Shown: piece after piece, positions 27,501 through 62,708 of the stretch
Numbering within the stretch: position 1 is the first letter of the stretch
Layout: each line of letters begins with the position of its first letter
Source: Hypomesus transpacificus
Lineage: Eukaryota > Chordata > Actinopteri > Osmeriformes > Osmeridae
Length of the DNA stretch: 64,000 nucleotides
Direction: 5' to 3'
Assembly (NCBI RefSeq): GCF_021917145.1
Contig: NW_025813703.1
Span: forward strand, 62,001 to 126,000
Notes under the pieces: model-generated
What the model was told of the DNA's origin: nothing
Seen by the model: only the letters and a program-made list of their open reading frames with translations
Databases searched by the model: none
Made by a program: the position numbers and the translations under genes

Positions 27501-29996
27501 TTATTATTCCTGGTTGTGCTCAACCTGAGGCAGAGATTCTGTAGTTTGTGTGACAACCTTGTGCCTTTCTGTGACAACCTATCCCATCTGCAACTTTCTT
27601 TTATGGCTATTTTGCTGCTGTCGAAACAGAACAAAACAGAAGAAATAGAAAAATCAGAAGCAGGTGTGTTGGAGCAGGGAAACCTCTAAAACATGCAGGA
27701 CAGGCTGCCTAGAGGACCAGGGTTGAGGACCGCAGCTCTAAACCATTCAGAAAGACGTGTCCCCAAAGTGAGGGTTTTGTCATGCATTTCCCCAATGTCG
27801 GCTTAAGTAGGTCTGTGTGTGATTGTGACTGTGGGGGAGTGACTGTGTGTATGAGGCTGTGTGATGGTGTGACTGTTTGTGTGACTGTGTGGCTGTGTGT
27901 GTGAGGCTGTGTGACTGTGTGACTGTCGGGGTGTGACAGTGACTGTTTCCTACCTCCTCATCCGAGGTGTCCTGTTCGTACTCGTCCCTCAGCATGGTAC
28001 TCAGTCCTCTCTCTTCCATCCCCCTCTCCTCTTCTCCACTCTCACCACATACTTTCTTCACCTTCTTTTTTTTCACCTTCTTCAATAAAGAACCGTCTTC
28101 CTGCAGGGCACAGAATACTCAGTTTAAGAAGATGACAGAGGGTGTCCATGTTTTACAGATTGTCACAAGGAGGGATCCTCAATGATAAAACGATTCACCA
28201 CCACGCTTTCTCCAATCTCTCCAGACTCTAGTAGACTACAATAATTAACACCTTTGTGAAAACTCTGTCCTCTTCCAGGGATTGAAGAATTGCTTCACAA
28301 CAATTAGAGTTCTGCCCTGTCAAACTGTGAAAGACATGGCTGGGTTACAGCTCCCCCCAATGGTCAGGAAAAAGAACACATCTTTCGCACTTACCTGAAC
28401 TGAGACCAGTCACACCGTTACAGAAAGAGAAGCTGTTACAAATAGACCAATCACACTGTTGCAGATCTACGACTACAACTACGTTTACTTGCACCAAATA
28501 TTTAGATTTTTGCCTTTATTCTGGAACATAAACACAACATTCCTGCTCATATGTTTACATGTCAAATGAAAATATATATCCCCCCTAATATTCCTGTTCA
28601 CATCGCAGCCGTGCTTACTCCGATTAACTAGTTGGCTTGTGTACAACGCACAGAGCTGACAGTGAGACAGTGTGTTGCAAAGTGCATTAAAAAACAACAG
28701 AAATGCTGATTCTGAATATGCTGCATACATCTCCAAAGAAGGCTCCTACGACCCAAATCATATCTGCATATGCCACGTCTTCATTAGAAAATGCTACATT
28801 CAGAATATGGCCTAATTCAGAATATCTCAAAGAATTGATATCCTGAATAATAGTGGGATACTAGTGTGCATGTAAACATTCTCACTATTACAGAGAGAAA
28901 CCAGTCACACTGTTACGAGACACACCAGTCAAGATGGCTACCTGAACATCTTCCTTTTCTGGGCTCTCAGCTCCACTGCTGATCTCCAGGGGTCCATCGA
29001 TGACAGCCAGATCTTCCTCATCGTCACTGTCGCTCCCCGATTCCTCCAGCCCTGAGAACACACTCTCCTCACTGTCAGAAGCATCCTCTTCCTCCTTTTC
29101 CAGGGTCAGGTCTATGCTGAACAAGGGAAGCTGGGAGGAGAGATGACATGTAGAAACATCAGGATAGTCTGCAGTGTGACACTCGTCAGCTACATTACAT
29201 CAACCAGCCAACCGGGACTTAGCGCTAAACTGTGCAATAAAACAAGCATTTTGTCTCCATGAAGTTATTTCAAGCCAAGGTCAGCTTTGAGCCAGTTAGA
29301 TTGTTCTTCAACACTTATCATTTCGGTTATGATTTGATTAAGGGGCAATAAGTTCATTATATTAAAAGTTGCTGCCTTTTCTGGAGGTCTGTTTTAGACT
29401 GGCCATGTCTCTTTCACAGTCTTAAGCCAGGCTACTGTTCATGTTCTGAAAGCTTTTGAGATAAATTACTTGACAAGTATAAATGCTTTCAAGTTTTTAA
29501 TTGCAAATGCTTCCAAGGGCATCGAAGGAATACAATGTAACAAATAAAGAGTGCAAAAGCATCTACTAAATCGGTGTAACGATTGAGGGTAATAACCCGT
29601 GGGCTAGTTATATTTTTTAACTTTGGTTCGAATCGTACTTAATTCTCCGTGGATGCTTTTTGCTCATAAAAACAGACAACCGCTGCCACCGGAACCTACA
29701 GATACTCGCTACATCAAGCACACACTACCTTTATAGAAGACTGAACTGGGATGCTAACTGGACAAGAAAGATTCAAATCTCATTCCGGCCATGCGTTCTT
29801 GATAGCTAGTAGCAAGCTAGCACAGCGGTATAAGCTGGCCGCTCGGTTTCAGCTAACCGGTTAACATTACATCTAAAACGGCATTGTGCTGTACCTTGTC
29901 ATCCTCTTCTTCTACGCTCCTTTTCTTCACACTCTTTTCTTTAGCCTTGCTCATGTTTGTACAGTCTGTGTTGTACTCGAGCTTCTGTGTCGGCAT
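13589..29996 (-). CDS. bop1: BOP1 ribosome biogenesis WD-repeat protein
   Basis: BOP1 (yeast Erb1) works with PES1 and WDR12 in the nucleolus for 28S/5.8S rRNA maturation. Sixteen coding exons (minus, 5' to 3') are 29895-29996, 28942-29130, 27954-28100, 19045-19199, 18770-18887, 18051-18152, 17731-17943, 17209-17370, 16994-17074, 16840-16909, 15550-15682, 15254-15434, 14514-14805, 14070-14154, 13825-13932 and 13589-13742. They total 2,292 nt and 763 aa (human 746). An acidic N-terminus ([16 protein letters not shown]) precedes the BOP1NT domain ([30 protein letters not shown]). WD40 blades follow ([44 protein letters not shown]) and the end is [11 protein letters not shown]. The start may instead be MSKAKEK at 29954. 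Intron 3 (8.75 kb) hosts SCX on the other strand. Confidence 0.97.
14200..14512 (-). repeat. Degenerate AGCCTAGC repeat in BOP1 intron
   Basis: About eight imperfect copies of a 40-45 bp unit (TAGCCTAGCATGTCTTAGC, GGGACTAGCCAGGCAC) fill the intron between BOP1 exons 13 and 14 up to the splice donor. Confidence 0.75.
14885..15060 (+). repeat. Tandem repeat in BOP1 intron
   Basis: Three to four copies of a unit near 55 bp (TTATCCATCTCTAGTGTTTG, then ATGTGCTAATGCTAACCC). A poly-G run (14830-14845) and GT run sit just to the left. Confidence 0.7.
15776..15822 (-). mobile_element. Teleost SINE tail fragment
   Basis: On the minus strand, CACTTTGGATTAAAGTGTCT followed by GCGAAATGAATCC matches the common fish SINE tail (CTTTGGATAAAAGCGTCTGC then TAAATGAAT). 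No tRNA head is visible nearby. Confidence 0.55.
18003..18036 (+). repeat. (GT)n microsatellite in BOP1 intron
   Basis: About 17 GT units sit close to the BOP1 exon 6 donor (18051). A second shorter run (17708-17729) abuts the exon 7 donor, placing simple repeats directly at two 5' splice sites. Confidence 0.9.
18180..18690 (+). repeat. Purine-rich 36-bp-class minisatellite in BOP1 intron
   Basis: About 14 copies of AGATGGGGATGAAGAGACAG followed by AGAGAGGGAGAG, with a variant ending GTGAAGAAAG. The array runs from just beyond the exon 6 acceptor (18152) almost to the next exon. It opens all three minus frames but has no coding features. Confidence 0.95.
19205..19625 (+). repeat. 23-bp minisatellite with CCCTAACCC cores
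   Basis: About 18 copies of CACAACCCAGACCCTAACCC plus CGT, starting six bases from the BOP1 exon 4 acceptor (19199). Each unit contains a telomere-like CCCTAA. Confidence 0.95.
19725..20155 (+). repeat. 39-bp minisatellite
   Basis: Eleven nearly identical copies of a 39-bp unit (CTGCTGCAGTCTGGCAGGAC then ACAGACCCAGTCTGTAACC). One copy has an extra GAG. Because 39 is divisible by three, long frames stay open on both strands; they are repeat translations, not genes. Confidence 0.95.
20255..20645 (+). repeat. Purine-rich (GGAGGA) block upstream of SCX
   Basis: Irregular GAGGAGGA and GGGACAGGGAAGGAGGAAGA units end 25 bases before the SCX TATA box. They could form triplex or influence the promoter, but no factor site is claimed. 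Confidence 0.7.
20671..20678 (+). promoter_or_regulatory. TATA box of SCX
   Basis: TATAAAAG in a GC-rich setting (CCCAGCTATAAAAGGGGCAC) lies 570 bases upstream of the SCX ATG. Transcription would begin near 20700, giving a 5' UTR of about 550 nt. It is a consensus element, and no competing TATA lies between it and the ATG. Confidence 0.6.
21249..23985 (+). CDS. scx: Scleraxis bHLH transcription factor, nested in BOP1 intron 3
   Basis: Scleraxis drives tendon and ligament progenitor programmes by binding E-boxes as an E-protein heterodimer. Exon 1 is 21249-21746 (166 codons, donor GTGAGT) and exon 2 is 23953-23985 (10 codons plus TAA, acceptor TTTTTCAG). The intron is phase 0 and the product is 176 aa. 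The bHLH runs about residues 62-112: [20 protein letters not shown], then [20 protein letters not shown] and [10 protein letters not shown]. The tail [20 protein letters not shown] ends LRS, as expected for scleraxis. It lies inside BOP1 intron 3 on the opposite strand, as in mammals. Teleosts have two copies (scxa, scxb); this sequence alone does not say which. The intron holds simple repeats. Confidence 0.95.
21765..22000 (+). repeat. Purine-rich repeat in SCX intron
   Basis: GAGAGAGGGAGGAGGGGAGA-type units begin 20 bases after the SCX exon 1 donor. No gene signal. Confidence 0.8.
22697..22744 (+). repeat. (GT)24 microsatellite in SCX intron
   Basis: Uninterrupted dinucleotide run, preceded by CGCAC. 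Confidence 0.95.
23025..23315 (+). repeat. (GA)n-rich microsatellite block in SCX intron
   Basis: Long runs of GAGAGA with CAGAGA and CAAAGA interruptions, including a pure run near 23195-23230. A short TATATATA lies at 23046-23055. Confidence 0.9.
24010..24290 (+). repeat. 20-bp minisatellite after SCX exon 2
   Basis: About 14 copies of ACACCCCCCAGGACCCTACC start 25 bases past the SCX stop, so they are probably part of the SCX 3' UTR. CA runs follow at 24459-24489 and 24547-24563, with a poly-C tract at 24530-24546. Confidence 0.9.
24570..27953. other. BOP1 intron 3, no gene recognised
   Basis: AT-rich single-copy-looking DNA. At 24950-25370 there are GGGCAAACCAACGATAGCGG and short frames, without a complete ORF or clear ends. 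At 26170-26300 an acidic frame reads [14 protein letters not shown], faintly like the N-terminus of a piggyBac-type transposase, but stops follow at once. From 27180 to 27420 broken frames continue. These may be decayed DNA transposons; no family is claimed. Confidence 0.4.
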
Positions 29997-39460: not shown

Positions 39461-42400
39461 CTATTGCTGGTGGGTGGGGTCACTGGGAGGCTGCTGTGCT
39501 GATTGGTCCGTGCATTGGAAACGATAACGCAGGAAGTGCACCCTGGGCTTCATGTGGAAGTCAGCAGGTATCCTCCAGTTCCACATCTTCTGCACCTTCA
39601 GGAGCATCAGACAATATCAGAGAACTCAGGGAGGCTCGGCTGGTAGGGTGGTAGAGGTAGAAGTCTACACAGATATCACATTTGACATTTTATTCATTTG
39701 GAGGAAGCTTTTCTCCAAAGCGACATAGATCTACGTGTAGAGAACATCAAGAATCAGTAGCAGAAAATACAGAATCCCTGGAAGAAGCCCTTCCTGACTG
39801 CTAGGTCACAAGAAGAACCATGGAAGAAGGACTCCCTTGAGCTGCTATCAGTAAACGCATCAATCACAATCTACCACATTTTTTGTATAAAACCTTTCCT
39901 GTATGAAACCTACGGGACTTCCTGTATAGAGTCTACGGAACTTCCTGTTTGAACAGGTGACCTTAGCTTACCTCAGACAGTGTACATGTTCCTGTATATA
40001 GCAGGACTGTGTGCAACAATGTTTTGCACTGTGTAGCAGGACTGTATATGTAACTGTGTAGCAGGGCTGTGCGTGTAGCAGGACTGTATATGTAACTGTG
40101 TAGCAGGGCTGTGTGTGTAGCAGGACTGTATATGTAACTGTGTAGCAGGGCTGTGTGTGTAGCAGGACTGTAAAGGTAACTGTGTAGCAGGGCTGTGTGT
40201 GTAGCAGGACTGTATATGTAACTGTGTGTAGCAGGGCTGTGTGTGTAGCAGGACTGTATATGTAACTGTGTAGCAGGCCTGGGTGTGTAGCAGGACTGTA
40301 TGTAGCATTGTGTAGGTGAAGACGCCTACCTTCAGGACCCTGACCAGATGTGTTGTACTGTTCAGCTGCTGGAACTGGAGAGAACAAACAAAACCGAGAG
40401 AAGAGAAGAACCCTTGAGCATCTGTTCCCCGAGGAACCACCTCTGTTTCCCGAGGAACCACCTGCAGCCTCACCAGCCCGCTCCCAGAGCCGTCTGGTAG
40501 GTGTGTGGGTGTGTGAATGTGTGGGTGTAAGTGCACGTGTGTGAATGGGTGTGTGTAAGTGAACGTGTGTGAGTGTTTATTGTTGACTAACTAGGACTCT
40601 CATGAAGCTTACCAGCCAGCTGTGACTGTTCTGTTCCGGCAGGCTGACCTGAGTGAAACAGACACATGATGTTAACACACAAACACACGTACACACACAT
40701 AGACACCCCCTTACAAACCTCATCACAAACACAGGAAAACTTGATACTACTAACTCCTTTCTAACGACCCCATCACAAATAGGACAACTTGATAATGCCA
40801 CGACCTAGCCACCCAGTCTGTCCTGACACACACTGCTCTCTGCAACTATGGGCCTGGTCTGGAGGACACTCACTGGAACCACGGGCAGCTTGTGGGTCCG
40901 CTGTTCCTGCAACAGAAAACAGAGAGGGACTCTCAGAGAGCTGCCGACAATCTGAACAGAAGTGAACAGACCAGAGTTAGGGTCAGTAGTGAACAGACCA
41001 GAGTTAGGGTCAGTAGTGAACAGACCAGATTTAGGGTCAGTAGTAAACAGACCAGAGTTAGGGTCAGTAGTGAACAGAACAGGGTTAGGGTCAGTAGTGA
41101 ACAGACCAGAGTTAGGGTCAGTAGTGAACAGAACAGGGTTAGGGTCAGTAGTGAACAGACCAGAGTTAGGATCAGTAGTGAACAGAACAGGGTTAGGGTC
41201 AGTAGTGAACAGACCAGAGTTAGGATCAGTAGTGAACAGAACAGGGTTAGGGTCAGTAGTGAACAGACCAGAGTTAGGGTCAGTAGTGAACAGAACAGGG
41301 TTAGGGTCAGTAGTGAACAGACCAGAGTTAGGATCAGTAGTGAACAGAACAGGGTTAGGGTCAGTAGTGAACAGACCAGAGTTAGGATCAGTAGTGAACA
41401 GACCAGATTTAGGGTCAGTAGTGAACAGACCAGAGTTAGGGTCAGTAGTGAACAGACCAGAGTTAGGGTCAGTAGTGAACAGACCAGAGTTAGGGTCAGT
41501 AGTGAACAGACCAGAGTTAGGGTCAGTAGTGAACAGACCAGAGTTAGGGTCAGTAGTGAACAGACCAGAGTTAGGGTCAGTAGTGAACAGACCAGAGTTA
41601 GGAACAGTAGTGAACAGACCAGAGTTAGGGTCAAGAGTGAACAGAACAGGGTTAGGGTCAGTAGTGAACAGAACAGGGTCTGTAGTCAGCACCTTTGTCT
41701 GTTGCCATGTCTGTTGTTGTGTCTGTTGTCGTGCCTGTTGCCATGTCTGTTGCCGTATCCGTTGCCGTGCCTGTTGCCATGTCTGTTGCCGTGTCTGTTG
41801 CTGTGTAAGTGCCTACAGCATCAGTCTGGGGAAAAGTGTTGCTCGGAACCCCTGTAACTGTGACATCACAGGCCATCACAATAATATAATCTTAAGATAA
41901 TGTATTCAATGGTTATGGTTATGTATTCATAGAGGGCCACATGTTCTACTCACCTGATGACTCTGTGTGGTCGACAACAATGTGAAAATCTCCAGCTCCT
42001 ACAAGTCACAAAGTGCAAGTCCCATATTTTAGTCATTATCAAAGTTCTTATCACAGTACCATCACAGTCATTATCACAGACTCATTGTAGTCATCATCAC
42101 AGGCCCACAGACCCCATCAATCATTATAAGAATATCCAGCAATCATTATCAATTGTGATACTGCAATCATCATGTAATGAATCGTAATCATTACAATACC
42201 CATCAGGTAAGTCACAATCCCAGTCAGTATTACAGTTATGATTATAGTCATTATCACAGTCATAAACCAAGTCACTATTACGGTCATTCTGACTCTCTTT
42301 ATTAGCAGGTGTACCTGTGACGTTATGTCCTAATCCAAACTCGGATTCTGTGGAGATGAAAAAAAAAAAGACCATTGAACAGATTCCCAAGCAAACGTAC

Positions 42401-45400
42401 TATTCAACCATCAAGACCTGACTGACCTGTGAAGTTCAGAAGTCCACTGGTCACTGTGACATCATCAGCCCCTGGGACAAACACTGGAGACGTTAGATTG
42501 GTGGAAACGGGTGCAGAGGGATGGTCAAATAGGGATCGGGCGGGGGGTGGTGGAGGGGGTGGGGGAGGTGGGGGGGGGGTGGAGGGTGGAACTGGGTAGT
42601 GAGGAGGGAAGCAGGGAGAGGGGGAAGAGCTGAACCAACCTGGAGCGTCCGAGGCAGTAGAACTGTGGACGTCTGCCAGCACTAACACATGGGGGGGAGA
42701 GGGGGGGGGGGGGGCAGGGTGGACGAAGGTAAGAGACGAAACAAAGAGAGAGAGTGCGGAACAGAAGATTAAAACGAGTTTTGACGCAAACTCTTGTGAC
42801 CATGCGACGCCAAAGAAGGTTTAGACGCTTCGCGACGTGGGGAGGCTGGAAAGGGTTAGGGCTGTGACTCTGTCATAGAGGTGTGGAGGAGAAGAGAGGC
42901 AAGGCCTATACCTGGGGCAGGCGTGGGGGCGTGGACATCGTCCACACCATCTACCAGGACAGTGGCTAACGTGAAGAAACGGGAGTTAGCCAACATCAAC
43001 AGACAGTTACGACCGAGTAGACTGGAAAGTGAGCCGGGATGATATTAATCTATCCCTTTAGCTTTTATCACTAGAATAACGCTATACCCATCCCCTGGTG
43101 CTCGTGCATAATCTGGTGTGACACCGTGTTTGTGTTCCTAGCTGGAGATACTGTGCTCTCTACCTGGAAATCCTGTCTGGATATCCAGTCTAAATATCTA
43201 ATCTAGAGATTTTGTCAAGCGTTCCTGTCTGGAGTACTAGCCTAGAGATCCTGTCTGGAGGTACTAGTCCAGAGATCCTGTCTGGAGTACTAGCCAAGAG
43301 ATCCTGTCTGGAGTACTAGTCTAGAGATCCTGTCTGGAGTACTAGTCTAGAGATCCTGTCTGGAGTACTAGTCTAGAGAACCTGTCTGGAGTACTAGTCT
43401 AGAGATCCTGTCTGGAGTACTAGTCTAGAGATCCTGTCTGGAGTACTAGTCTAGAGATCCTGTCTGGAGTACTAGTCTAGAGGTTCTGTCTGGAAATCCA
43501 TTCCTACCTGCGATAGTCCCCATGATGTGGATATGATCATCAACATGGTGGTCTCCTAGGAACCAGATATAAGTAATATTTCCACATTGTGCCACTAATG
43601 CGGGATATAATGCTTTAGTGCTGTCACTAATGTAGCATACTGTACGTCGCTAAAGGGCAGTCACTAAAGTAGGAAGTGTGATAGAGCTGTCACTAATGCA
43701 GAATGTTCCGTACCTCCATGGGTGTCTATAACCAGACTCTGTCGACCATTCCCTGCAACATACAAATATCCCCGTGAAAACATGCTATTCATTTCAATCC
43801 ACCGGTTTTAATGCAGATATGAAATGTACAGCAATGGCATAGGATCTTTGGCCCACATTTAACTCATAACTTACCATTAGAATCAGCTGAGTCTGTGCTG
43901 GAGACATCTGGACAGACAGGGGGAATGTGTTTATAACTGGTGCTGGGTGGAGGAATTGTTCTGATGTTTGTTGTGGTATCCTACATGTGTGTATGATCTT
44001 ACCTGGGTAATCTATGTGTAAATGATCTGGAAGTGATATCACAGATGCTGCGTCTGTAGACCAAAACTGAGGGTGAGGTTGTTATAAACGTCCTGGCTGT
44101 GAACATTCAGTAGCAGAAACGGTTCCCAGGAGCCAGATACTGGGGCGTTTTTAGACTTACCTGGAGCATCCATGTGGCCAGCGTAATCTCCCATGCCTGT
44201 AGGAATGCATGATGACAACACACTTTTACATCACGTCAGTGACGCGTAGAGCCAAACGACTGTAGTCCACAGTCTTTGCTAGTGCACTAGTGTGTCAACT
44301 ATCCTGCCTTAACCTCATCTCTCCTGCCTCGACTTTAACTAGCCTGCCTAGATCTCAATTAGTCTTCGATGACCTCAACAAGCCTGTGTTGCGGTTTCCA
44401 CAATACCACTGAACTAGCTAAAAAAGGTCAGCTTTCATGCCAGGTCCCACTGACCTGTGTCTGCTGCTGGAGGGTCGTCTGAGCCGGAGACAGCATGGTC
44501 GGGGGAGGAGCCTGGAGAGGGGTGGTCAGATTGAATTAAATACGATTTCAGAACTGTGGGTTACAAATATTCTGAGGGGTTATTGAGCAAAAACATATAT
44601 GTCAGTTTATATTTATCACCCTACATCATGTTTGTTGTGTGCACTCCAGGGAACTCTTCATATATAATATTTAAGAGATACCGTAACCCTAATATTTCAG
44701 TTTAATATAATAACATTGTACTGGTAGGATGATTGGTACCTAATGTGATACTGGTACCTAGTTGGATAACTGGTACCCAGTAGGATAACAGATACCTATT
44801 AGGATAACTGGTACCTGGTGGGATTACTGGTACCTGGCAGAAGAACTGGCACCTGGTAATTAATGAGCTAGAACAACAGCATTCAGTACCTGGATGGGCA
44901 TCTGGATATGGGCTGCTACTGGACAGCAGATCCAGATCTGCCTCAATGTGAATGTCTGGACCAAAGGGATCAACTCCACCTACAAACACAGCCATGACCA
45001 CAGCCATAAGCACAACCATAAACACAACCGTGACCACAACACGCCTTTAGAGGAGATATTGAGATGAACTCACCCATCAACCCAATGAGGAAGTCATGAC
45101 TGGATTCATCTATGATGCCTGGGGAAGAGCATGAGCTGAGTGACGCGATCATGGACACAGAACGGATCGTACCGGAACTGGAAAAACAATAGCACCCTCA
45201 CCTGGACACTCACCTGTATAGTCCAGGTGAGAATCGGTACCAAGCGGCTCAAGAGCACCTGGACAAAAGAACCAACACAAAACGTTTACAGGTGTCATAA
45301 ATAATCAAATGATTTCATCCAGCTTTTATCCAAAGCAACAGGGATTTGAACCTGCAACCTTTACATCTGCAGTGTTATACCCTACCACGAAGCTATACGG

Positions 45401-48400
45401 GGCAGTCTGTCTCATGCTGTCAACGGAATTAGTGATCATCTTTTCTCTCGTATGAGACTAGACCTACCTGCTGTGGAGTCTGTATGAGCGGTTCCATCAG
45501 TGAACGGGTCCGTGCCTAAGGCTGAGATACAAGCAGTTGGACTTCAGAAAAACACTGCTGCCTCCCTGATCCCGACCTGGGTTTCCAAGGTTTCCAATCT
45601 TCTGCCCTGCTCCTCTCCTCCTCGCTTCCTTCTGTCTTCTCTTTTTCCTCCCCTCTACCTCCCGCCCTCTTCCTTCCTTCCTTCCTTCCTCCTCTCCTCC
45701 TCCCGCCCTCTCTTCCTCCTCTCCTCTTCCTCCACTCCTCCTCTTCTTCTCCCCCTGCCCTCCTCTCCTCTTCATCCTCGCTTCCCTTCTTCCTGCCTTC
45801 TCCCCCCAGCCCCATGCCCTCATCCTCCATCCTGTCATACCCTGCTTCCTGTTTGCTCACCTGAATGACCATTCTCAAGGGCTCCATTCAGCAGCTTGTG
45901 ACCATTACCTGAGAAAGAAAGTGATCCCATGAAATCCATTGGCTGTTACTAAGGAGTCATCAATAATGGATGGATGATAGATCTCACCAGTCACATTACA
46001 ACCAACAGCTCACAGAAAAGGTAGAATGGAGCTGTAATTCGATAAATGTTAGCGATTGTTGAATGATTCGAAAATGTGGGGGTATTTGTTGTCTGCAGTG
46101 TTACCGTTGAACTCCATCTCAGGTGCCTCTGAACCTGAAGAAACAGCAAAAAAGCGTACATCATTTATGCAATTTAAGCAATTTAGTCATGTCATATCAT
46201 GGCATGACTCAGGTACCTTGACAGGGGCATTGTGCATCTGCTTTACTGTGTCCAGTGTATAGCAACAGCAGCTGCAGGGGGTGGGTTACAGGTGGGTTAG
46301 AGGTGGGTGAGGGTTAGGGGTGAGTAAGTGAGTGAGTGAGTGAGGGGTGTGTGGGTTAGGGGTGAGTGAGTGAGGGGTGGGTTAGGGGTGGGTTAGGGTT
46401 AGGGGTGAGTAAGTGAGTGAGTGAGTGAGGGGTGTGTGGGTTAGGGGTGAGTGAGTGAGGGGTGGGTTAGGGGTGGGTTAGGGTTAGGGGTGAGTAAGTG
46501 AGTGAGTGAGTGAGGGGTGTGTGGGTTAGGGGTGAGTGAGGGGTGGGTTAGGGGTGGGTTAGGGTTAGGGGTGAGTAAGTGAGTGAGTGAGTGAGGGGTG
46601 TGTGGGTTAGGGGTGAGTGAGGGGTGGGTTAGGGGTGGGTTAGGGTTAGGGGTGAGTAAGTGAGTGAGTGAGTGAGGGGTGTGTGGGTTAGGGGTGAGTG
46701 AGGGGTGGGTTAAGGGTGGGTTAGGGTTAGGAGAGAGTGAGATGTGGAGGTGGGTGTGGAGTTCCGTGGTCTCGTACCGTGAGACGTGGTGTCAGCGTGT
46801 CCTCCCTCTGTTCCTAAGGACACAGTCATGTAGAATCAGACCTGGCCTCTGTGCTATGTAGCAGTAGGAAAGACATGCTAAAACCATGTTCTGCTGGGTT
46901 AGGGCTAGCCCCATACAGGGTTGGGGTTGGGGTTTAGGGTTGGTCCTGACGGGCATGGCTCTTACCTGGAGCCTGCAGCTGAGATGAAGAACTGCCATGT
47001 CCCTCGGCACCTACTGATGACATCATGACACACAACCTCACAACAGTTCTACAAAACACAACCTCAACAAGTTCACCCTGGTTTCTGGAGATGCTGCCCT
47101 CTGGTGTGTGCTGACAGAATGCAGCACACTTGAATGTGCAGGGTTTTGGTTATAATATGGTTTGCTGGTTTAGAGGGTTCGGGTCAGAAGACAATGCATG
47201 GGGTGACATGTGAACAAGGTGGTGTAAGGTCATCGGGAGCACAGTTTGGTCACATGTACAAAGAGGTATGGTCTACATGACGGTGGATCAGTGATTAGTG
47301 GAGGTACATAGACCGCTGGGTGTCGTGGTGCAGGGGTGTGGAACAGAACTGGTACCAGACATGGAGTACAAGGAGGACCCTGGCTGTCCTGGTGCACCAA
47401 CAGACTCTGAAATCACACAAACACTCATCTGAAAGGAGGAGCATCTGAAAGGAGGAGCAGGAGGGGAGGAGGGAGGGAAAGATGATGGGGGAGGAGCAGG
47501 AGGAGGTGAGCAGAGGAACAGGAGGAGGAGGAGGTGAAGAGGAGGAGATGGGTGGGTCTGGCTGAAGCGTTACCTTGGGAAAAAGAGGATGCATCATGGA
47601 GACTTCCGTCACCAGGAGGGCCCTCCTCCACCCCTCCTGAATCCAAAGAGTGAGTCAGATTCATGACTCAGGAGTCAGAGCGCACATGAACAAGACACTG
47701 AGCATGTTTACGTGCACATTCATCATCCAATGTTATTCGGATTCAATTTGGTTGCAAAAAAGTTTGAATTTGGCCTGGATAGTTGCCCTGAGATTTAAAG
47801 GCACATTCATAATATTTAGGAATGCTGCTTTCTTAAGATCAACGTTGTATGATAAATTACATGTCTATGGCACTTTACGGTACAAGGTACTGAACATGTT
47901 GAGTACAGTATGGTATACTTTAGTTAGTGTGCGGTTCTTACCGTTGATCCCTTGTGACGTGGAGGTGCTGCTGGAAGCTACGACAGAGAACACATCATGA
48001 GGTCTCACTCAAGCACACTGACATCGCAGGGATACACGGGGGGGGGGGGGGACAGGGGGGACACGACCCCCCCATCCTGGGAAAAATATGATTTGCCCCC
48101 CCCAATGAATCACTGTAAACATAACTATGTGATTTCTATAATATTAATCATACGCAATGAAAGCGCTTCGCTGATTATGGACACAATGGTGCTTTTTTAC
48201 TGGGCTATGTGTTACAGCAGTCATTTGGAATCCCCCTCAGGAATTGCTCTTGAGAAAATGTCATAGAATTGTCCCACCCCAAGTTCATAGCAGATTTTTG
48301 CCACTGATCGCAGGGAGCACATGCTGCACCTGGTTTAGACTCACATCCAGAGCCAGCAGAGAGGCTAGCACATCCATGCTGCTGGTCACCTGAGGGAAGT

Positions 48401-51400
48401 ATTCTAACAGGTGTTCTGGTTATACTGGAGTGTAGGTGTATGGGTGTACATGTATCTAGGTATATACTGTACAGGTGTGTAGCACTGTAAGTATATCGGT
48501 CTGCAGGCGTACAGTTGTGCAGGTGGTCAATGGTATAGCCTAGTTCTATCCTGGCTTTCTTCCTGTGGTGGGGTAGCGTGGCTGCACCAGAGAGTGAAGG
48601 CCTCCCAGCCCTCTGTGGACCAGGACCACTCTAAGGGGTTCCCCACTTGCCATTCTGCTCATCAGGGCCACAGTGAACACAGACTGAGCCGACAGGGCTC
48701 AGGGGAGAGAAGAGATGTGTGGATGGACAGGTGTGGAGGTGTGCAGGTGTGTGTGTGTGTGAGTGGAGTTGTATATGTGTACAGGCGTATGCTTGAGAGA
48801 GTTACCGTTAAGAGCCTGGCCCTGGGCGGAGGAGTCCGGCAGAGCACTGACGCCTGGAAGGAAACGGCTTTTAGTTTGAGGTCATCTTGGACCGTACACA
48901 TTAACATACTACCCCACCCTCCCTCTACACACACACACATTCACACATACCCCCCCCCACCCCCCCGTAAAACACATTTATTTACACCCCACACACACAC
49001 ACATACCCACAAACACAGAGATGCACACACAGCCCCCCCTCTGTTCTGGCGTAAACCAATCAGATGTGCTCTGGGGTAAACCAGTCAGATCCGTCCTGGC
49101 GTAAACCAAATCAGACGTGCTCTGGTGTAAACCAATCTGATCGGCTCGGGTGTAAATCAATCAGATGAGCTCTGGTGTAAAGCAGCGAGCGATCTCCTGG
49201 CGGAGAGGGGATTAGGGTCATCTTACCCAGGCCCTTTGATGCTGTGCTCGTCTGCGATGCAGCTCCTGCAGGGGAGACGAGAGTCTTCTGAGATTGATCT
49301 ATAAAGCCCTTCATTCAGCCCGCTGGAGGGAAGATTAGGCCTACTTCCATACCTGCACACCCATGTCACTGGGAGAGCAGTGAGGCTTTTGGTTTTACCA
49401 ACAAACGGACTTTATGCAGAGGGGTTCTACTTCAGAGATTGGTTCGTTTGGTTTTATGAAATACCATTTAATGTTTATGTCCGTCTTAAGCGGTTTGTCT
49501 TTGAAACCCGTTACTGTTACGTCATTCAAGACATTCAAGTCGAATTAGAACATGCGTGCTCGTCATTTAACTTTAAAGATCTATCCTTCAGACATTTCAG
49601 TTTGGCCTCTGACCCCAATCACTCACAGAGTCATCTGTTTAGACTGACAGATTTAAACACAAGGTCATTGCTGTTCTCTTCATTGGTGGTATGTTGTTAA
49701 CCTCTCACCCATGTGCTTATCCTGACTCTTGGAGTCATCATCATCTGAAAAGAAAAGGACATTAATAAACGAAATAAATAGATTTGTGTCCATATTGCTT
49801 TAGTCTGATGTTCCATTCCACTGTGAACAGGTTAGGATTAGGCATTCTATTCCAAGTGATATTAAAAAGGTCTAATTTGACGATACTGCAGGTCTCCTAC
49901 TATGATAATGTTAGAAGCAGGTCTAGTAGGACCCACAGCACCATCATACTAGACCTGCAGCATTATCATACTAGACGTACAGAATCATCATACTAGACCT
50001 GCAGGAATGATCAGTAATGCTGCAGGTCTAGTATGAAAATGCCAGGTGTCACATCTTCTGTGTGTGTTCACCTGTTCTGTTTGGCCTCGCCCCCTTCAGG
50101 TGTGTCTCGTCGGCTCGTTAGTAGGGTATTTAGTCAGTTGGGTTATGTGTCCTGTGCCAGTTCGTCTTGTGTGTCTCTACCTAGCGTTCCTGTGTACCTG
50201 TTCTGTTCCTGCCTTGTGCTCTGATCTCCCGTGCTTCGACCTCGATTAGACTCGACGACGACTACTCTACCTGATACCGGATTGTACCTTCACCGCCAGC
50301 CTGTGTACCGACCACCTGCCTGTACCTGACTTCTCTCTGCCTTAAATAAACCCTATTGTTCTTGGAAGCCACCTCCTGTGTCTGCATCTGGGTCTACCTC
50401 TGTGCGTGAGCCGTTACACCAGGAGCAGATAGAAAATGTCAGTCCTACTGGTCTAGTTAGCTAATGCTACACAAATAACTAGATATTGCTGTGGAGTAGG
50501 TCTAGTGTGGGTATGTGGCAGATCTAGTATGATAAAGCTGCAGATCTAGTATGATCTAGTTTGGTAAGGAGGCAAGTCTAGTACAGTCTAGAAGCAGGTC
50601 TAGTAACAAAATGCTAGGATCAGGTCTAGTAAGCTATTGTTAGGGGAAAGTCGAGGAAGGAAATGTTAAGAACAAGTCTACAATGGTGACACTTCAAGTA
50701 TAGTATGTTATTGCTGCAAGTCTAGTATGGTAATGCTACAGGCCTAGTTTGGGAATGATAAAAGTCTAGTATGATAATGCTAGGAGCAGTCGGGTAATGC
50801 TGCAGGTCTAGTATGTTGATGCAGTAGGTTTAGTAAAGCAATACTGGGAGCAGGTCTAGAATGATCAAACTACTGGTCTAAGTAGTAAGACGTGGCTAGG
50901 AGTAGGTTTAGTATGATAATTCTACAGGTATTGTATGATAATGCTGGGAACAGATCTAGTATGGTAATGCTACATGTCTAGTATTTTAATACTACAGGTC
51001 AAGTAAGGTAAGGCTAGGAGCAGGTCTAGTATGGTAAAGTTACAGGTATAGTGTGATAATGCTAAGAGCAGGTTTAGTATGGTAAAGTTACAGGTATAGT
51101 ATGATAATGCTAGGAGCAGGTTTAGTATGGTAAAGTTACAGGTATAGTATGATAATGCTAGGAGCAGGTTTAGTATGGTAAAGTTACAGGTATAGTATGA
51201 TAATGCTGCAGGTCTAGAATGGCAATGCTCAGGTCTAGTTTAGTAATACTAGGAGCAGGTCAATGATAAATTGTCTAAGACGTAGTAAGAGCGATTTAGC
51301 AACATAACCTGACCCTAACTCAACAAAAGTACCTTGCTATTTTAGAGTATGTTATTGTGTCATGTCACTACTATTTTAGAGTGACGTTAAAACAATACCA

Positions 51401-52294
51401 TGTTAATGAAGCCAAGTTAGAGTGATATTAGAACTGTGCCTATTTAGGATGCATCTATCTAAACGTTTATGGCTGTGAACTTAGCGTGAGGACACGTCCC
51501 TCTCCCCAGCCTCTCTATCTCAGTCCCTCCATCCCATGCTGCCCACCATCCCTCCCCTTCCCCCGCCCTTCCGTCTCCTACCCTCCTCCTCCTCGGAGAG
51601 CTCCTCTTCTCCCTCCTCTGTTTCCACCTCCGTGTCCTCGTGTTCTATCTCTGGACAGAGAAGTCAGGGTTACCCGTGAATCAACGGCATCACAGTGAAC
51701 TCAAAATGAACCCACGAGGTTTGGGGAAAGTTCCTACCGTCCACTGGGGCTGTGAAAGCTGTTACTACCAGAAAGACAACCACTGACGCAATTAAAAGAT
51801 TTCTGTGGATAAGAAATAATACCTCAGAATCCATTATAACAAACATAATCGTTGTTATTACTATGACAGTTCACAATGACTACTTATTAACTACGGTTAA
51901 TAAGTTGCTATTGTTGCGTGTCACTTAAATGCTCCTGTGGGTTATTAAAAAGTACAATACGAGGACACAAAATGAATCATGTCCAGGGGTTTAACTCTAT
52001 CCTCCTGTCTCCACAGAATGTTAGCATAATCAGCATTACAACATTTAGATCATCTTTTCAGACTTCAGATGAAGACTAGATCCTTTAGCCCTAACAGTCA
52101 GCAGATGTCTAGACACCCAACAGTCTATCTTCACCACCACACCTGTAAACATCTCAATAATCTGATCCACTCTGGATCACCCCAAATTACAACACTAACA
52201 ATAAACAGCAGAAACCAGCTCCATGGAAACTGCTTATTGAGGAGACAGCCCTCCACAACAGTAGCTCTGCAGTGTTAACTTACCGTGACAGCAT
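39461..52294 (-). CDS. Unrecognised secreted Gly/Ser/His/Asp-rich protein, ~35 microexons
   Basis: No family recognised. Exons (minus, 5' to 3'): 52284-52294, 51738-51802, 51582-51650, 49709-49744, 49227-49265, 48806-48853, 48345-48389 (less sure), 47942-47977, 47574-47636, 47356-47406, 46966-47010, 46778-46813, 46105-46134, 45861-45908, 45468-45515, 45214-45258, 45074-45118, 44890-44979, 44455-44511, 44161-44196, 44003-44053, 43875-43907, 43714-43752, 43508-43555, 42912-42965, 42640-42681, 42427-42471, 42315-42347, 41954-41998, 41693-41812, 40874-40906, 40613-40648, 40474-40493, 40330-40374, 39461-39589. The total is 1,716 nt and 571 aa without a stop. The start MLSRNLLIASVVVFLVVTAF then TAPVD is a signal peptide. 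A Glu-rich stretch follows, then a long Gly/Ser/Asp/His body, a Thr/Ala exon (TATDTATDMATG) and a basic aromatic end (KMWNWRIPADFHMKPRVHFL). NFT, NVT and NST are possible N-glycosylation sites. Introns are phase 1 except the first and last two. Starmaker-like or elastin-like matrix roles are speculative. Confidence 0.7.
39683..39732 (-). mobile_element. Teleost SINE tail fragment
   Basis: Minus strand ATGTCGCTTTGGAGAAAAGC then TTCCTCCAAATGAAT, a diverged copy of the fish SINE tail, in the last intron of the microexon gene. Confidence 0.5.
40000..40312 (-). repeat. 42-bp minisatellite in last intron of microexon gene
   Basis: About seven copies of GTAGCAGGACTGTATATGTA then ACTGTGTAGCAGGGCTGTGTGT, ending 18 bases from the penultimate exon donor. 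Confidence 0.9.
40955..41690 (-). repeat. 27-bp minisatellite with GTTAGGGTC cores
   Basis: About 27 copies of GTGAACAGACCAGAGTTAGG followed by GTCAGTA, with GAACAGGG variants. The 27-bp length keeps frames open on both strands. It begins directly at the donor of the Thr-rich exon (41693). Each unit has a TTAGGG-like core. Confidence 0.97.
42530..42720 (+). repeat. G-rich tracts flanking a microexon
   Basis: GGGGTGGTGGAGGGGGTGGG-type runs lie at 42540-42590, with a 12-base G run near 42703-42714, on either side of the exon at 42640-42681. On the transcribed strand these are C-rich intronic tracts. Confidence 0.7.
43190..43495 (-). repeat. 26-bp minisatellite in microexon gene
   Basis: About 11 copies of GTCTGGAGTACTAGTCTAGA then GATCCT, ending about 15 bases from the donor of exon 43508-43555. 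Confidence 0.95.
45308..45403 (-). mobile_element. tRNA-Cys-derived SINE
   Basis: The minus strand shows an A box (TAGCTTCGTGG, 45385-45395), a Cys anticodon arm (CTGCAGA) and a B box (GGTTCAAATCC, 45342-45352). GTTGCTTTGGATAAAAGC, the start of the fish SINE tail, follows. It is an intronic insertion between microexons, not a functional tRNA (stems mispaired). Confidence 0.75.
46285..46738 (+). repeat. Higher-order minisatellite of TTAGGG/GAGT units
   Basis: Five long-period copies (80-90 bp) each hold (GAGT)n, GTGTGTGGGTTAGG and GGGTTAGGGTTAGGGGTGAG. It is a two-level repeat inside an intron of the microexon gene, with exact telomere-like GGGTTAGGGTTAGGG strings. Confidence 0.95.
47995..48300. 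other. Possible decayed non-autonomous element
   Basis: A block bounded by G/C homopolymer strings (GGGGGGACACGACCCCCCC at 48056-48074) runs through AT-rich single-copy-looking DNA. It has the look of a hAT-type MITE, but I cannot find a matching second terminus or target duplication. Confidence 0.25.
49890..51275. repeat. Degenerate CTAGTATGGTAATGCTACAG minisatellite split by an LTR
   Basis: Many diverged 28-35 bp copies built on AGCAGGTCTAGTATGATAAT and GCTACAGGT occupy 49890-50040 and resume at 50424-51275. Three copies at 51045-51200 are nearly identical, so local amplification was recent. The gap between the halves is a solo LTR. At 49958-50033 inverted copies (CATACTAGACCTGCAG against CTGCAGGTCTAGTATG) could form a hairpin. 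Confidence 0.85.
50047..50418 (+). mobile_element. Solo LTR (gypsy-like) with 5-bp target duplication
   Basis: The 372-bp segment starts TGTCAC and ends GTTACA (TG...CA termini, short imperfect inverted repeat). It is flanked on both sides by CCAGG (50042-50046 and 50419-50423). An AATAAA lies at 50344-50349, followed by TGTCTGCATCTGGGTCTACC, as in the R-U5 part of fish LTRs. No gag or pol lies beside it, so it is a solo LTR left by recombination. Class assignment (Ty3/gypsy-like) is from general appearance only. Confidence 0.8.
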
Positions 52295-52382: not shown

Positions 52383-52390
52383 ATTTTATA
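52383..52390 (-). promoter_or_regulatory. TATA box of the microexon gene
   Basis: The minus strand reads TATAAAAT, 89 bases upstream of the ATG at 52294, so transcription would start near 52355 with a 5' UTR of about 60 nt. It supports the 11-nt first coding exon. The 42-bp minisatellite begins about 35 bases further upstream. Confidence 0.6.
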
Positions 52391-57416: not shown

Positions 57417-60400
57417 TTACTTTGGCTGCGGGACAGGGTCTTCCTCGATGGGCATCACCGTGATGGCTCTGGAGAGGAGATCAAAAACAGCGGGATCGCA
57501 CAAACGCTCAATTCACAGGTGTAAAACACAAGCTGAAGGTGTAAGGCACTACGTGGCTACAGGACTATGGGTGTAGCTACAGGACTATGAGTGCAGCTAC
57601 AGGACTATGGGTGTAGCTACAGGACTATGGGTGCAGCTACAGGACTATGGGTGCAGCTATAGGACTATGGGTGCAGCTACAGGACTATGGGTGTAGCTAC
57701 AGGACTATGGGTGTAACTACAGGACTATGGGTGCAGCTACAGGACTATGGGTGTAGCTACAGGACTATGGGTGCAGCTACAGGACTATGGGTGTAGCTAC
57801 AGGACTATGGGTGTAGCTACAGGACTTTGGGTGTAGCTACAAGACTATGGGTGTAGCTACAGGACTATGGGTGTAGCTAGGTGCATCAATGTAGACACAT
57901 GATTACAGCAGTAGCTACAGGAGTATCAATGTAGATACAGGTGTATCAATGTCAAGACAGGAATATAGCAGTAGATAGTATAACAGGCATATGGGTGCAG
58001 ATACTTGGATGAACCGTGGAAAGATGGACCTGCAGGTGTGTGGATGGAATAATTACCTATTGAAAACTGATATCCCAGTGGATTCCTTCCATAGCGCTAA
58101 GACTGGGTCAACATGGCAGCATCAGAGCCTGGAAGTAGACAGGTGATCAGTGAGGAGGTTAATGTAGCATCCCTGAAGAAGGAGGCTGATTGGTCTTCCA
58201 GGCTGGCAGTGTGGTGTAGTGATCTTTACCCTGCTTTGCGCCCTGAACCATATCATCTGAATGGTCCAGTTGGTCCAGTTGGTCCAGCTGGTCAAGTGGG
58301 TCCAGTGGATCAGGTGTGACTGAGAGCTCTGTAATATGGGTTCACATTGTGCCAAAACATGATGCTGAACTGTAGCCAACAACATTTTCTTATGTTGTAA
58401 CAAAGGAAGTGCCAGGGTTAGGATACCTACTCACCATCAGATAACATGTCCAGCTCCTCCTGCTCATCTGACTGAACCAACTCTGTTCAGAGAAACACAT
58501 TAGAGTACCCAAACACCACAACCAGAACCAACCCAACTGGGACTACTACAACCACAACCATACAAACCCCAACCCAACTAAAACCCAATAAGAACCAACC
58601 CAACTAACCTAGAACCCAACTAAAGTTCAACCCCACTAGAACCAAATTCATGTGGAACCCAAATAGAACCCAACCCATCTTGAACTAACTCATCTACAAC
58701 CAAACTAGAACCTAATACATAAATACATAGATGCGCAGCATACTCATCATTTATTTTAACATATTTTTTCTTGTAACAGTTGTTGACAGGCACCTTTAAT
58801 ATCTGTCTGAACGGCTACTATAGATGATCTTGATTACCTTGGATTGTTATGGTGTTGTTTGTTTGATATGCTTTTAATGTGTGTTGGCTGTGTGTCTGCA
58901 GTCTACATGATCTGAGCTGTACCCCAAATGGCTTCTTGGAAGGCATTCAAGTTTGATAACAATTCCAACTAGGACCCAACACATTATAACCCAACCCTAG
59001 TAGAACCCAACCCAACCTAACTAGAACCCAACTAGAACCCAACCCAACTGTAACACCCAACTAAGATGAACCCAGCTAGATCCCAACCAGAATCCAATCC
59101 AACTAGAATCCAACACCCATACACACACCTACACATAGATCCAACTAATCTAGAACCCAACTAGAACCAAAACCCATCATGGACCAACCCAACCAGTACC
59201 AACCCAACTGGGAGCAACATCCTCATCATTCTGAATGTGTTCATATCATTCCTGACACTCACCATCAGACACCATGTCTGTGTCATCCAGATCGTCTGAC
59301 TTCACCGTCTCTGTTCAGGGAAACACACACCTCGTAAGAGTACCACCCCCATCAGAACCTCGTTAGGTCTTTGTTTTGTATCCTGGAATTTACCGTCTGA
59401 ATCTGGAGCAGTCTCCTCAAGGTGGTCATCTTCATCTGTTAAGATAAACAGAGTTGAGACTGTAGCATTCACACTACAAGATCCTCACTAGTCGCCACTA
59501 TGTCACCACTATCTCACCACTATGTCACCACTATCTCACCACTATGTCACCACTATGTCACCATTTGTCATCGCTAAGCAGCAGTCAGTCATCCCCTGTT
59601 AACTCATTAATGTCCATTAATTTATGAGTTAATCAATCCATTTATTGGGATTGTAAATTAGACAGGATTACGCAGATAATTTGGACTGGTATTTTTGTAA
59701 AAGACAATGGTAAAGTATTCACAACTGTGTGACGATAGAATAGTTGTCCAAATAACTTAAACATGATTCGCATGTGAGGGAAGTGCTAAGTGGTCTGACT
59801 GGAATACAAACACTCAGTTTGGTTAGCACACCCAGTGAGTTCTTACGCTAATCCTGACCCACCTGCGTTTGAGTCTGCGTCCTCTGCTGGCTCCAGGTCT
59901 GCTTCAAGTTCAGGGTCTGAGGGAACAAGATAACGTCACATCTGGCCAGACAGTAGGACAGGACTGGGCGGAGAATAAGTATCACTCATGGGCGTATCTA
60001 GCCCTATTTTGGGGGGGCTGGAGCCCCCCAAAAGGTTCATTAGCCCCCCCAAAAAATTATGATATAAAAATATATATATATTTCTTCATATTTTAAAACT
60101 AAATATGTTTATCTCTCTTCCTAAAACCCACCGGAGGACACAATTTAAAAGGACATTTTCACAAAAAAACTCCCAGACCCCCCTTAGTTTTGCTGGGTCA
60201 CAGGAAGAATTATGGGTTTTATCTAGGGGCTTACCCCCTCCAAAAGTGGGAACCTAGATTCGCCCCTGATATCACTGCTTTATCATTCACCTCCAATGGT
60301 CTGGAGAGGTAGTCCGCTAGATTGGCTCCCAATGGCCAATAACCCCTTTGTGGTTGATTAGATAGTTTGATACTGATTTACATTTATGAGGCCAGACCTA

Positions 60401-62708
60401 CCAGATGCCAAACTGTCTTCCTTCTCGTTGGCGTCGTCAGTGTCCGTCTCTGTCAGGAAGCAATGAACAGTTATGTACTGTACAAGACGTCTTACTGGAG
60501 AAACGCTATCATCTATGGTGTAGCTATGAATTTTCATTATACAAGGTCATGTGTGGCCATGGCTATGTTACAGAAAAGTCGTACCTTCAGACAGCTTGTC
60601 TACACTGGTATCCTCTGATTGTGAATTGCTGTCCTGGTCTTGGTCTGGGACATCTTGGTCTTGACTGTCATTGCTGTCCTGGTCCTGGTCTGGGACATCA
60701 CTCTCCTGACTGTCATTGCTGTCCTGGTCCTGGTTCTGGTCTGGGACATCACTCTCTGGACTTTCATTGCTGTCCTGGTCCTGGTTCTGGTCTGGGACAT
60801 CACTCTCTGGACTTTCATTGCTGTCCTGGTCCTGGTTCTGGTCTGGGACATCAGTCTCCTGACTGTCATTACTGTCCTGGTCCTGGTTCTGGTCTGGGAC
60901 ATCACTCTCCTGACTGTCATTGCTTTCCTGGTCCTGGTTCTGGTCTGGGACATCACTCTCCTGACTGTCATTGCTGTCCTGGTCCTGGTCTGGGACATCA
61001 CTCTCCTGACTGTCATTGCTGTCCTGGTCCTGTTTCTGGTCTGGGACATCACTCTCCTGACTGTCATTGCTGTCTTGGTCCTGGTTCTGGTCTGGGACAT
61101 CACTCTCCTGACTGTCATTGTTGTCCTGGTCCTGTTTCTGGTCTGGGACATCACTCTCCTGACTGTCATTGTTGTCCTGGTCCTGTTTCTGGTCTGGGAC
61201 ATCACTCTCCTGACTGTCATTGCTGTCCTGGTCCTGGTTCTGGTCTGGGACATCACTCTCTTCACTAGAATCACTCTGAGCTTCAACAGCAACTTCGCTC
61301 TCATCCATGCTGTCATCCTTGCTGTCCTCCTTGCTGTCATCCATGCTGACATCCTTGCTGTCATCCTTGCTGTCATCCATGCTGTCATCCTTGCTGTCAT
61401 CCTTGCTGTCCTCCTTGCTCTCGGAGGAGTCTGCCGAGGACACATTCTTGTCTCCTTGTTTACTTGGCTCCACCTCTGGGACTTGGGCGACCACGGGACC
61501 ACCCTCCTCTAGGCTCTCCGCAGACTCGGCCTGTTGCCCTTCATCTCCCCCTGCCTCCACCTGCTCCCTCACCTCATCCTTAACACTATCTCTATCCGCT
61601 GTGTCATCCTGCTCAGCCGCATCTTGGTTTTCATCGCTGTCTTTGCTCCCCTCGTCCGTCTCCGCTTCCTGTTCCGGGCTGTCTGCTTCGCTCTCACTGT
61701 CATCCTCAGAGTCCTGCTGGCTGTCACTCGCCACCGCGGCTTCCAGGGCCTTGTCACTGTCTGTGTCTTGATCTGCCTCAATTTCCTGGTCACTGTCGCT
61801 GTTATCTGTCTCCATGTCTGCAGGTAGAAATATAACTTAAAGGAAGCTGTGATGTAGTGGAGATGTTGCATTCCAGACCACTATCAGACTGACTGCCCCT
61901 CTTACTGTCCCTTTGCTCTCCCTGGTAATGACCTGGTTACAGCCCATGTAACCGTCCCTACTACTGTTGATGTCCCTGTTACTGACCGTGTTTCCGTCCG
62001 TGTTACCAACCCTGTTATTGTCCCGGTTACTTTCCCTCTCACTGATTCATCCCAGTTAGTTAAAGGTCTATCCCCAGTTACAGTCATTCTAACAGTGCCT
62101 AGGCCACAGTAGTTGTGGATCTATTTAACATATTAATGTGCTTATTTTGGCGTCAACAACCATGGTATAGTTCTTGTGAGGGCTTGCGGGTGTTTGTGTT
62201 GGAATGGGTCATGTGTGTGTATGTATTGTGTGTGCGTGTTCGTGCTTGTCTGTGCTTGTCTTATTGTGTGTGTGTGTGTGTCTGTCACAATCACTATCCA
62301 TCGTTACCTGCATCATCTGGGTCCATCTCTAAGTCCTTGTCGCTGTCTGCATCTGACACCACACAGGGGCACACAACATACTGTTACAAGAGTGACATGA
62401 CAGTGACCAGATTCTGATAGTGCTTATGTAAAAGGGGATCATTGACCTTTCCCTTGTGAATCAGCGTCCTCCTCAACCTCTGACTCTGAAACACAAAAGC
62501 AACATCGCAACATCATGTTAGTGATGTCAGAATCTTGACAGAGTGATGTCAGGATGTGTCGTGTCAGCTCCTTGACGCGATGTAACTGTTTACATTCGGA
62601 TATTAGTGGTGTGTATATAACGGTGGTGTGTGTAACTACCCTCAGACGAATCATCCGAGTCTGTTTCAGCGGCATCTTCATCTTCAACACTGTCACTGGC
62701 AGCTGGAT
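57417..62708 (-). CDS. Unrecognised highly acidic Asp/Ser/Gln-repeat protein (5' end outside window)
   Basis: No family recognised. Exons (minus, 5' to 3') are 62640-62708, 62447-62485, 62308-62352, 60585-61817, 60402-60449, 59863-59916, 59394-59435, 59263-59310, 58435-58482, 58057-58096 and 57417-57468. They join in frame for about 571 codons to TAA. All introns are phase 1 except the last (phase 2). The junction codon is Asp or Glu at nine of ten junctions with phase 1 entry. The 1,233-nt exon (about 411 codons) encodes METDNSDSDQEIEADQDTDS, then EDSKDDSKDDSMDD runs and a dozen or so 15-17-residue repeats of the type VPDQNQDQDSNDSQESD. The end is less acidic (ALWKESTGISVFNRAITVMP then IEEDPVPQPK). 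Extreme acidity recalls mineral-binding proteins such as starmaker or DSPP; that is inference. SCPP genes have phase 0 introns, which argues against that family. Confidence 0.72.
57555..57880 (-). repeat. 20-bp minisatellite in acidic gene's last intron
   Basis: About 16 copies of AGGACTATGGGTGTAGCTAC (with GTGCAGCTAC variants) start about 90 bases from the last exon. Confidence 0.95.
58540..59215 (+). repeat. Degenerate AACCCAACTAGAACCC repeat
   Basis: Irregular 10-20 bp units of ACTAGAACCCAACCC lie on both sides of a non-repetitive insert (about 58720-58965), between two microexons of the acidic gene. Confidence 0.75.
59987..60268. mobile_element. hAT-type MITE with 8-bp target duplication
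   Basis: A 282-bp non-coding element with terminal inverted repeats: left CATGGGCGTATCTAG, right end (reverse complement) CAGGGGCGAATCTAG, 13 of 15 matching. It is flanked by GTATCACT (59979-59986) and ATATCACT (60269-60276), an 8-bp duplication with one mismatch. An 8-bp duplication and CAGGGGCG-type ends are typical of hAT elements. It lies in an intron of the acidic gene. Confidence 0.85.
60620..61265 (-). repeat. Coding minisatellite (51/45-bp) in acidic gene
   Basis: About 13 in-frame copies. The 51-bp form encodes VPDQNQDQDSNDSQESD, and 45-bp forms lack one Asn-Gln pair. Variants change N to K (GTTTCTGGT) or SNDSQ to SNESP. All length changes are multiples of three, as expected under coding constraint. 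A 12-bp Asp/Ser/Lys repeat (61300-61425, SKDD units) adjoins. Confidence 0.95.

Follow-up and report, generated by a model that had tools for sequence, protein, structure and literature searches.

Within a 64,000-nucleotide stretch of DNA from Hypomesus transpacificus (contig NW_025813703.1, positions 62,001 to 126,000; the window in what follows), the minus strand carries a gene spliced from 33 small exons, whose acidic product of 493 residues begins with a signal-peptide-like segment. Several described systems are comparable to it. Starmaker (Stm) of zebrafish, Starmaker-like (Stm-l) of medaka and OMM-64 of trout are acidic, disordered, secreted proteins, as the product of this gene also appears to be, and Stm has a very high content of Asp, Glu and Ser together with repeats of the Asp-Ser type. 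The cassette exons of tropoelastin are of the phase 1-1 type with Gly at their junctions, and in its chain hydrophobic modules of Val, Pro and Gly take turns with cross-link modules of Lys and Ala; the secretory calcium-binding phosphoproteins (SCPPs) have introns in phase 0. Medaka stm-l reportedly shows no sequence similarity to zebrafish stm, while the genomic structure and expression pattern of the two are highly similar (PMC4260845). Zebrafish Stm has a role in both otoliths and fertilization envelope (PMC8812434), and more than 25 Ca2+ ions are bound by Starmaker, which gains no structure in the process (PMC8391695). Published accounts describe schistosome MEGs as genes for secreted proteins made from short symmetric exons, with protein variation thought to arise via alternative splicing and with exons of 6–36 bp accounting for about 80% of the coding region (PMC5825161), and aphid bicycle genes as secreted, fast-evolving, recognised by gene structure, and composed of many small internal exons nearly all of one phase (PMC9168663).

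The coding region of the gene analysed here (the target) extends from 52294 to 39561 on the minus strand and, assembled by hand and by script, reads as one frame that ends with TGA (Table 1). Its 32 introns comprise a first one in phase 2 followed by 31 consecutive phase-1 introns, the latter exactly the number stated in a preliminary description of this DNA, and the 30 internal phase 1-1 exons are 30–90 nt long (median 45 nt). The size of 33–57 nt claimed for most of these exons holds for 26 of the 30, while the claimed upper limit of 120 nt does not, the largest having 90 nt. The residues at the 31 phase-1 junctions (20 Gly, 3 Glu, 3 Asp, 2 Ser, 2 Val, 1 Ala) also agree with those described before. 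Such Gly junctions are weakly informative, since they largely follow from the splice consensus, which mostly forces G at the start and the end of exons: the last base is G in 29 of 31 exons and the first base in 21 of 31. Ranked against all AG and GT dinucleotides of the region, the splice sites of the model reach median percentiles of 96 and 97, and the worst-ranked ones, at percentiles 69 and 73, are both found at exon 10.

The protein opens with MLSRNLLIASVVVFLVVTAFTAPVD, which by eye looks like a signal peptide, and continues with a Glu-rich stretch, followed by modules rich in Gly, Ser, Asp, Ala and His. The mature chain, taken from residue 23 and thus 471 residues long, has a pI of 4.05 and contains 87 Asp and Glu, 6 Lys and Arg, 28 His, 64 Ser and 61 Gly; Ser, Gly, Asp and Ala are its main residues, and its two Cys are located at positions 96 and 493. 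On a charge-hydropathy plot it lies on the disordered side of the boundary but near it (0.435 vs 0.475). The peptides of exons 3–29 show slightly more similarity to each other than when shuffled within exons (1 in 200 shuffles scored as high), and a motif Asp/Glu-x-His-aliphatic, picked after the exons had been viewed, is in weak excess (8 vs a mean of 3.0, p 0.02). The hidden Markov model search of the spliced product that had been proposed as a check yielded no Pfam match above the cut-off (those below it were NCKAP5, E 0.1 and 0.09, and PI3K p101, E 9.9); nothing in the PDB matched the 493-residue protein at E up to 1, and nothing in Rfam matched the whole window at gathering scores. The 33-exon chain and its signal-peptide-like start support the earlier claim that a single secreted protein is assembled from symmetric microexons of phase 1, and the product is probably a secreted, acidic, disordered protein of the extracellular matrix.

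That the target is a real protein-coding gene is near certain. A long chain is by itself poor evidence, since searches restricted to one phase find such chains on the target strand in every phase (phase 1, 27 exons; phase 0, 21; phase 2, 15). A frame-blind search was therefore used, in which dynamic programming on splice-site scores alone, with generic weight matrices, selects exons of 27–135 nt while ignoring the frame. On the target strand this search picked 23 exons, 20 of them symmetric, that is, divisible by three (binomial p 1.6e-7 vs 1/3), and these 20 are open in phase 1 in 18 cases, in phase 0 in 15 and in phase 2 in 9. Compared with a 34-exon model of the gene (see below), 19 of the 23 picks belong to it, and the exon distinguishing that model from the 33-exon one is not among the 19. 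The opposite strand gave 4 symmetric exons of 11, and the rest of the window, with both strands and the real genes included, 35 of 76, whereas none of 100 first-order Markov resamples exceeded 8 symmetric exons, with the qualification that the resamples also give fewer exons (mean 8.7, most 17). Under other penalties the symmetric exons numbered 23/28, 18/19 and 9/9 in the target vs 46/113, 21/45 and 17/26 in the rest of the window, the contrast being smaller with the strictest penalty (9/9 vs 17/26). A codon model derived from exons 2–29 was tested on 27 exons, each omitted from the model in turn, and chose the phase-1 frame in 26 of them, a result that is partly circular because the model was built in that frame. 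Codon usage of the conserved genes of the window was dropped as a coding test for the target, as in the control on exons 2–29 it did not separate the phase-1 frame (-79.9) from the corresponding other frame (-76.6).

With the Starmaker type the target has in common the signal-peptide-like start, the low pI and a charge-hydropathy position just within the disordered range; it differs in being Gly/Ser/Asp/His-rich and less acidic, in lacking repeats of Asp-Ser type and, in the preferred model, in having no large repeat exon, a comparison that concerns the character, not the sequences, of the named proteins. The phase 1-1 exons with Gly junctions recall tropoelastin; however, an acidic chain rich in Ser, Asp and His, with Lys and Arg so scarce, bears out the earlier view that the composition is not elastin-like. 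Unlike SCPPs, the target has 31 of 32 introns in phase 1 and one in phase 2. Secretion, short symmetric exons and modularity are shared with schistosome MEGs, but symmetric exons of 30–36 nt make up 309 of 1482 coding bases, far from the MEG proportion. Aphid bicycle genes, likewise modular and secreted and with many small same-phase exons, are insect genes with internal exons in phase 2 and CYC motifs, whereas the target is in phase 1 and cannot hold CYC motifs because its two Cys are far apart. It thus belongs to neither MEGs nor bicycle genes.

The target strand carries, farther upstream, the 3′ part of a second gene, of which 11 exons were picked by eye and whose stop lies 5.8 kb from the target ATG. 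All ten of its introns seen are in phase 1, and a 1233-nt exon (61817–60585) carries 51-bp and 12-bp repeats; Asp, Ser, Glu and Gln abound in the product, which has runs of DSKDDSKDD. In composition, repeats and plan this neighbour resembles Starmaker and OMM-64, a label given by recognition since Pfam returned no match for the large exon; a genome scan with the same exon, covering collections of prokaryotes, phages, plasmids and metagenomes, gave 125 pattern hits, none of them confirmed. Ten of the 11 exons start with A, which places Asp or Glu at the junctions, and the second junction base therefore differs between the two genes.

The neighbour shares the phase-1 small-exon plan, a likeness that holds between these two genes of the window, and an isolated orphan is therefore a poorer reading of the target than one member of a pair of adjacent like genes. 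The preliminary description, which had proposed an undescribed lineage-specific gene, was largely right about the chain itself, and its interpretation left out the acidic repeat gene upstream. As Stm and Stm-l are reportedly alike in structure and not in sequence (PMC4260845), kinship in this group is argued from gene structure, and two adjacent genes with the same unusual plan, taken with this precedent, suggest a tandem pair. We consider kinship between the target and the Starmaker type moderately likely. We lean towards the view that the upstream gene of Starmaker/Stm-l/OMM-64 type has in the target a divergent neighbour and probable tandem relative, which encodes a secreted acidic matrix protein with 30 interchangeable 1-1 exons.

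Several observations weigh against this reading. When 27 target exons were compared with nine of the 11 neighbour exons (the large and the last one left out), their similarity did not exceed that of shuffles, of which 115 in 200 scored as high. Compared with the neighbour, the target carries far less charge, and it is Gly-rich; the name of the neighbour itself comes from recognition, with no Pfam match behind it. Its 5′ end was not found within the window, so that signal peptides and first introns are not comparable. A point in favour would be that zebrafish Starmaker and trout OMM-64 presumably start with MLSR like the target and have Ala-Pro-Val where the signal peptide ends, but this link is unverified, a literature search for their first letters having found none. 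The target could instead be a real secreted microexon gene outside the Starmaker group, an orphan of mucus, egg coat or skin that lies beside a Starmaker-like gene by chance and owes its phase-1 plan to its own exon duplication. Both the lack of similarity in the one exon comparison made and the unlike composition would suit such an origin, and the weak similarity of exons inside the target fits duplication within the gene, but this alternative has to accept two adjacent genes of the same plan on the same strand as coincidence, and we regard it as rather unlikely. Literature searches found no text naming starmaker and hsf1 together, which does not show the locus to be undescribed, nothing on microexon genes in teleosts and, judged by title, nothing on fish among otolith proteomes; the portions available of PMC8515026, PMC9992438 and PMC9496343 contain nothing on the locus.

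Separate from kinship is the question of the C terminus. Exons 31–33, in the numbering of the 34-exon model, are open in two frames: the phase-1 frame extends the chain with residues rich in Gly, Ser, Ala and Glu as far as the TGA at 39563–39561, and the alternative frame yields a basic aromatic tail, MWNWRIPADFHMKPRVHFLRYRF, with a stop at 39461. The preliminary description had set this tail on the phase-1 chain, as the end of a 571-codon frame closing the gene at 39461. That length was not reproduced, the phase-1 frame having 493 codons and its own stop; and since the acceptors available to the last exon, as read from the sequence, join the aromatic frame in phase 0 only, phase-1 introns do not reach it. 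The connection needs a phase switch through the weak 35-nt exon 41851–41817. A first model that included it (34 exons, 538 aa, basic aromatic end) was abandoned for the 33-exon phase-1 model because of the codon comparison, in which the gene's own codon model gives exons 31–33 +6.7 bits in the phase-1 frame vs -4.9 in the other, with small margins per exon (2.8, 6.6 and 1.1 bits). In our judgement the phase-1 end is clearly to be preferred. It is improbable, though well short of negligible, that the 35-nt exon shifts the phase and the last four exons lead to the stop at 39461, or, as a variant, that both ends are produced via alternative splicing. The aromatic frame is open for 82 codons across four exons, and the codon usage of the conserved genes favours it in exons 31–33 (+12.9 vs -16.4 bits), but the same usage fails to single out the phase-1 frame in exons 2–29 too. 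The corresponding other frame of exons 2–29 carries 13 stops in 435 codons, and 82 open codons are therefore not very improbable; in addition, the extra exon has a donor score of -2.1, and no other switch exon was found. The PDB gave no match for the 82-residue tail at E up to 10.

The window is rich in minisatellites (202 Tandem Repeats Finder rows, overlapping ones included), several of which lie within the introns of the target. One at 40957–41676, with 26.7 copies of a 27-bp unit, occupies the intron 5′ of exon 31; on the minus strand two of its three frames are open, and one of these, with DPNSGLFTT repeats, runs on into exon 31 in the alternative frame of the latter. As a candidate coding exon, with an open stretch of 304 codons, it was left intronic because two of three frames are open, acceptors of the right phase are poor by eye, and exon 31 has a strong acceptor of its own (7.7). 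One frame of a 12-bp repeat at 41696–41806 is Ala-Thr-Asp-Thr-like and connects without a break to the alternative exon at 41851; some transcripts could include this repeat as an exon.

A decayed gene, whose exons and splice sites persist without a functional protein, might account for the low scores at some splice sites (exon 10) and for the many minisatellites of the introns, but we hold this to be very unlikely, since the 33 exons pass through 493 codons without a stop or frame break, though they were selected as open, and a TATA box as well as the signal-peptide-like start are retained. A chance chain of splice-like sites, for which the 21 exons of the phase-0 search could be cited, is practically dismissed by 20 symmetric exons of 23 vs at most 8 in 100 resamples.

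Eight of nine open stretches of the window were matched by Pfam. The plus strand carries two HSF pieces and an HSF DNA-binding piece, the latter HSF1 by its PDB match; they and the target lie tail to tail, in agreement with the position next to hsf1 noted earlier. On the minus strand are a BOP1 domain and a WD40 stretch, as well as a Pkinase match (7449–7709) between the BOP1 match and that of a DUF383 protein, which we take to be HGH1. A bHLH stretch with an HLH match (21231–21911, plus strand), between the BOP1 domain match and HSF1, is by its position presumably scleraxis. The ninth stretch, 28891–29199, had no Pfam match; the bHLH gene may lie inside BOP1, depending on where the latter ends.

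Table 1. Positions in the window of the target gene, its flanking signals and the neighbouring gene (exons numbered by the 33-exon model up to exon 29).
Feature	Positions	Strand	Remarks
TATAAA box	52385..52390	-	96 nt 5′ of ATG
Exon 1	52284..52294	-	ATGCTGTCACG; phase 2 out
Exon 2	51738..51802	-	Remainder of signal-peptide-like start; phase 2 to 1
Exon 3	51582..51650	-	Glu-rich, IEHEDTEVETEEGEEELSEEEE
Exon 4	49709..49744	-	DDDSKSQDKHM
Exon 5	49227..49265	-	
Exon 6	48806..48853	-	
Exon 7	48345..48389	-	Ser junction with exon 8
Exon 8	47942..47977	-	
Exon 9	47574..47636	-	
Exon 10	47356..47406	-	Lowest-ranking splice sites of the chain
Exon 11	46966..47010	-	
Exon 12	46778..46813	-	
Exon 13	46105..46134	-	
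Exon 14	45861..45908	-	
Exon 15	45468..45515	-	Other acceptor possible, to 45521
Exon 16	45214..45258	-	
Exon 17	45074..45118	-	
Exon 18	44890..44979	-	90 nt, longest 1-1 exon
Exon 19	44455..44511	-	
Exon 20	44161..44196	-	
Exon 21	44003..44053	-	
Exon 22	43875..43907	-	
Exon 23	43714..43752	-	
Exon 24	43508..43555	-	
Exon 25	42912..42965	-	
Exon 26	42640..42681	-	
Exon 27	42427..42471	-	
Exon 28	42315..42347	-	
Exon 29	41954..41998	-	
Alternative 35-nt exon (exon 30 of 34-exon model)	41817..41851	-	Phase 1 to 0; weak donor; would switch last exons to basic aromatic frame; outside preferred model
Exon 31 of 34-exon model (30th in preferred model)	40874..40906	-	Phase-1 reading TADPQAARGS
Exon 32 of 34-exon model	40613..40648	-	Phase-1 reading QPAGTEQSQLA
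Exon 33 of 34-exon model	40330..40374	-	Phase-1 reading PAAEQYNTSGQGPE
Last coding stretch	39561..39595	-	GAEDVELEDTC (first Gly codon starts in preceding exon) and TGA at 39563-39561
ATTAAA	39140..39145	-	Possible poly(A) signal
Starmaker-like neighbour gene, 3′ part	58097..62708	-	11 exons picked by eye; upstream of target, same strand

By analogy with Starmaker, the protein would be exported via the secretory pathway to a matrix that mineralises or hardens, such as the inner-ear endolymph or the egg envelope, where a flexible chain rich in Asp, Glu, His and Ser would offer Ca2+ many weak binding sites and might thereby modulate the growth of crystals or matrix. Since all internal exons beyond exon 2 are of the 1-1 type, exons can be skipped without a break in the frame, and in the same way they could be gained or duplicated, so that length and composition may change by splicing or in evolution. 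A further, decidedly doubtful possibility is that hsf1 is flanked by a small cluster of modular genes with phase-1 microexons, whose products would be extracellular mineral or matrix proteins. The target would be a second, undescribed kind among them, Gly/His/Asp-rich, with freely shufflable exons and with two possible C termini in different frames selected via splicing of exon 30. Should the target be a Starmaker-type neighbour, genes for matrix proteins of otoliths and egg envelopes would be clustered, and exon phase would reveal the cluster where sequence similarity does not; a group whose zebrafish and medaka members reportedly share no sequence similarity (PMC4260845) could then be traced by structure. 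The gene would then also provide a vertebrate case of a freely modular, secreted microexon gene.

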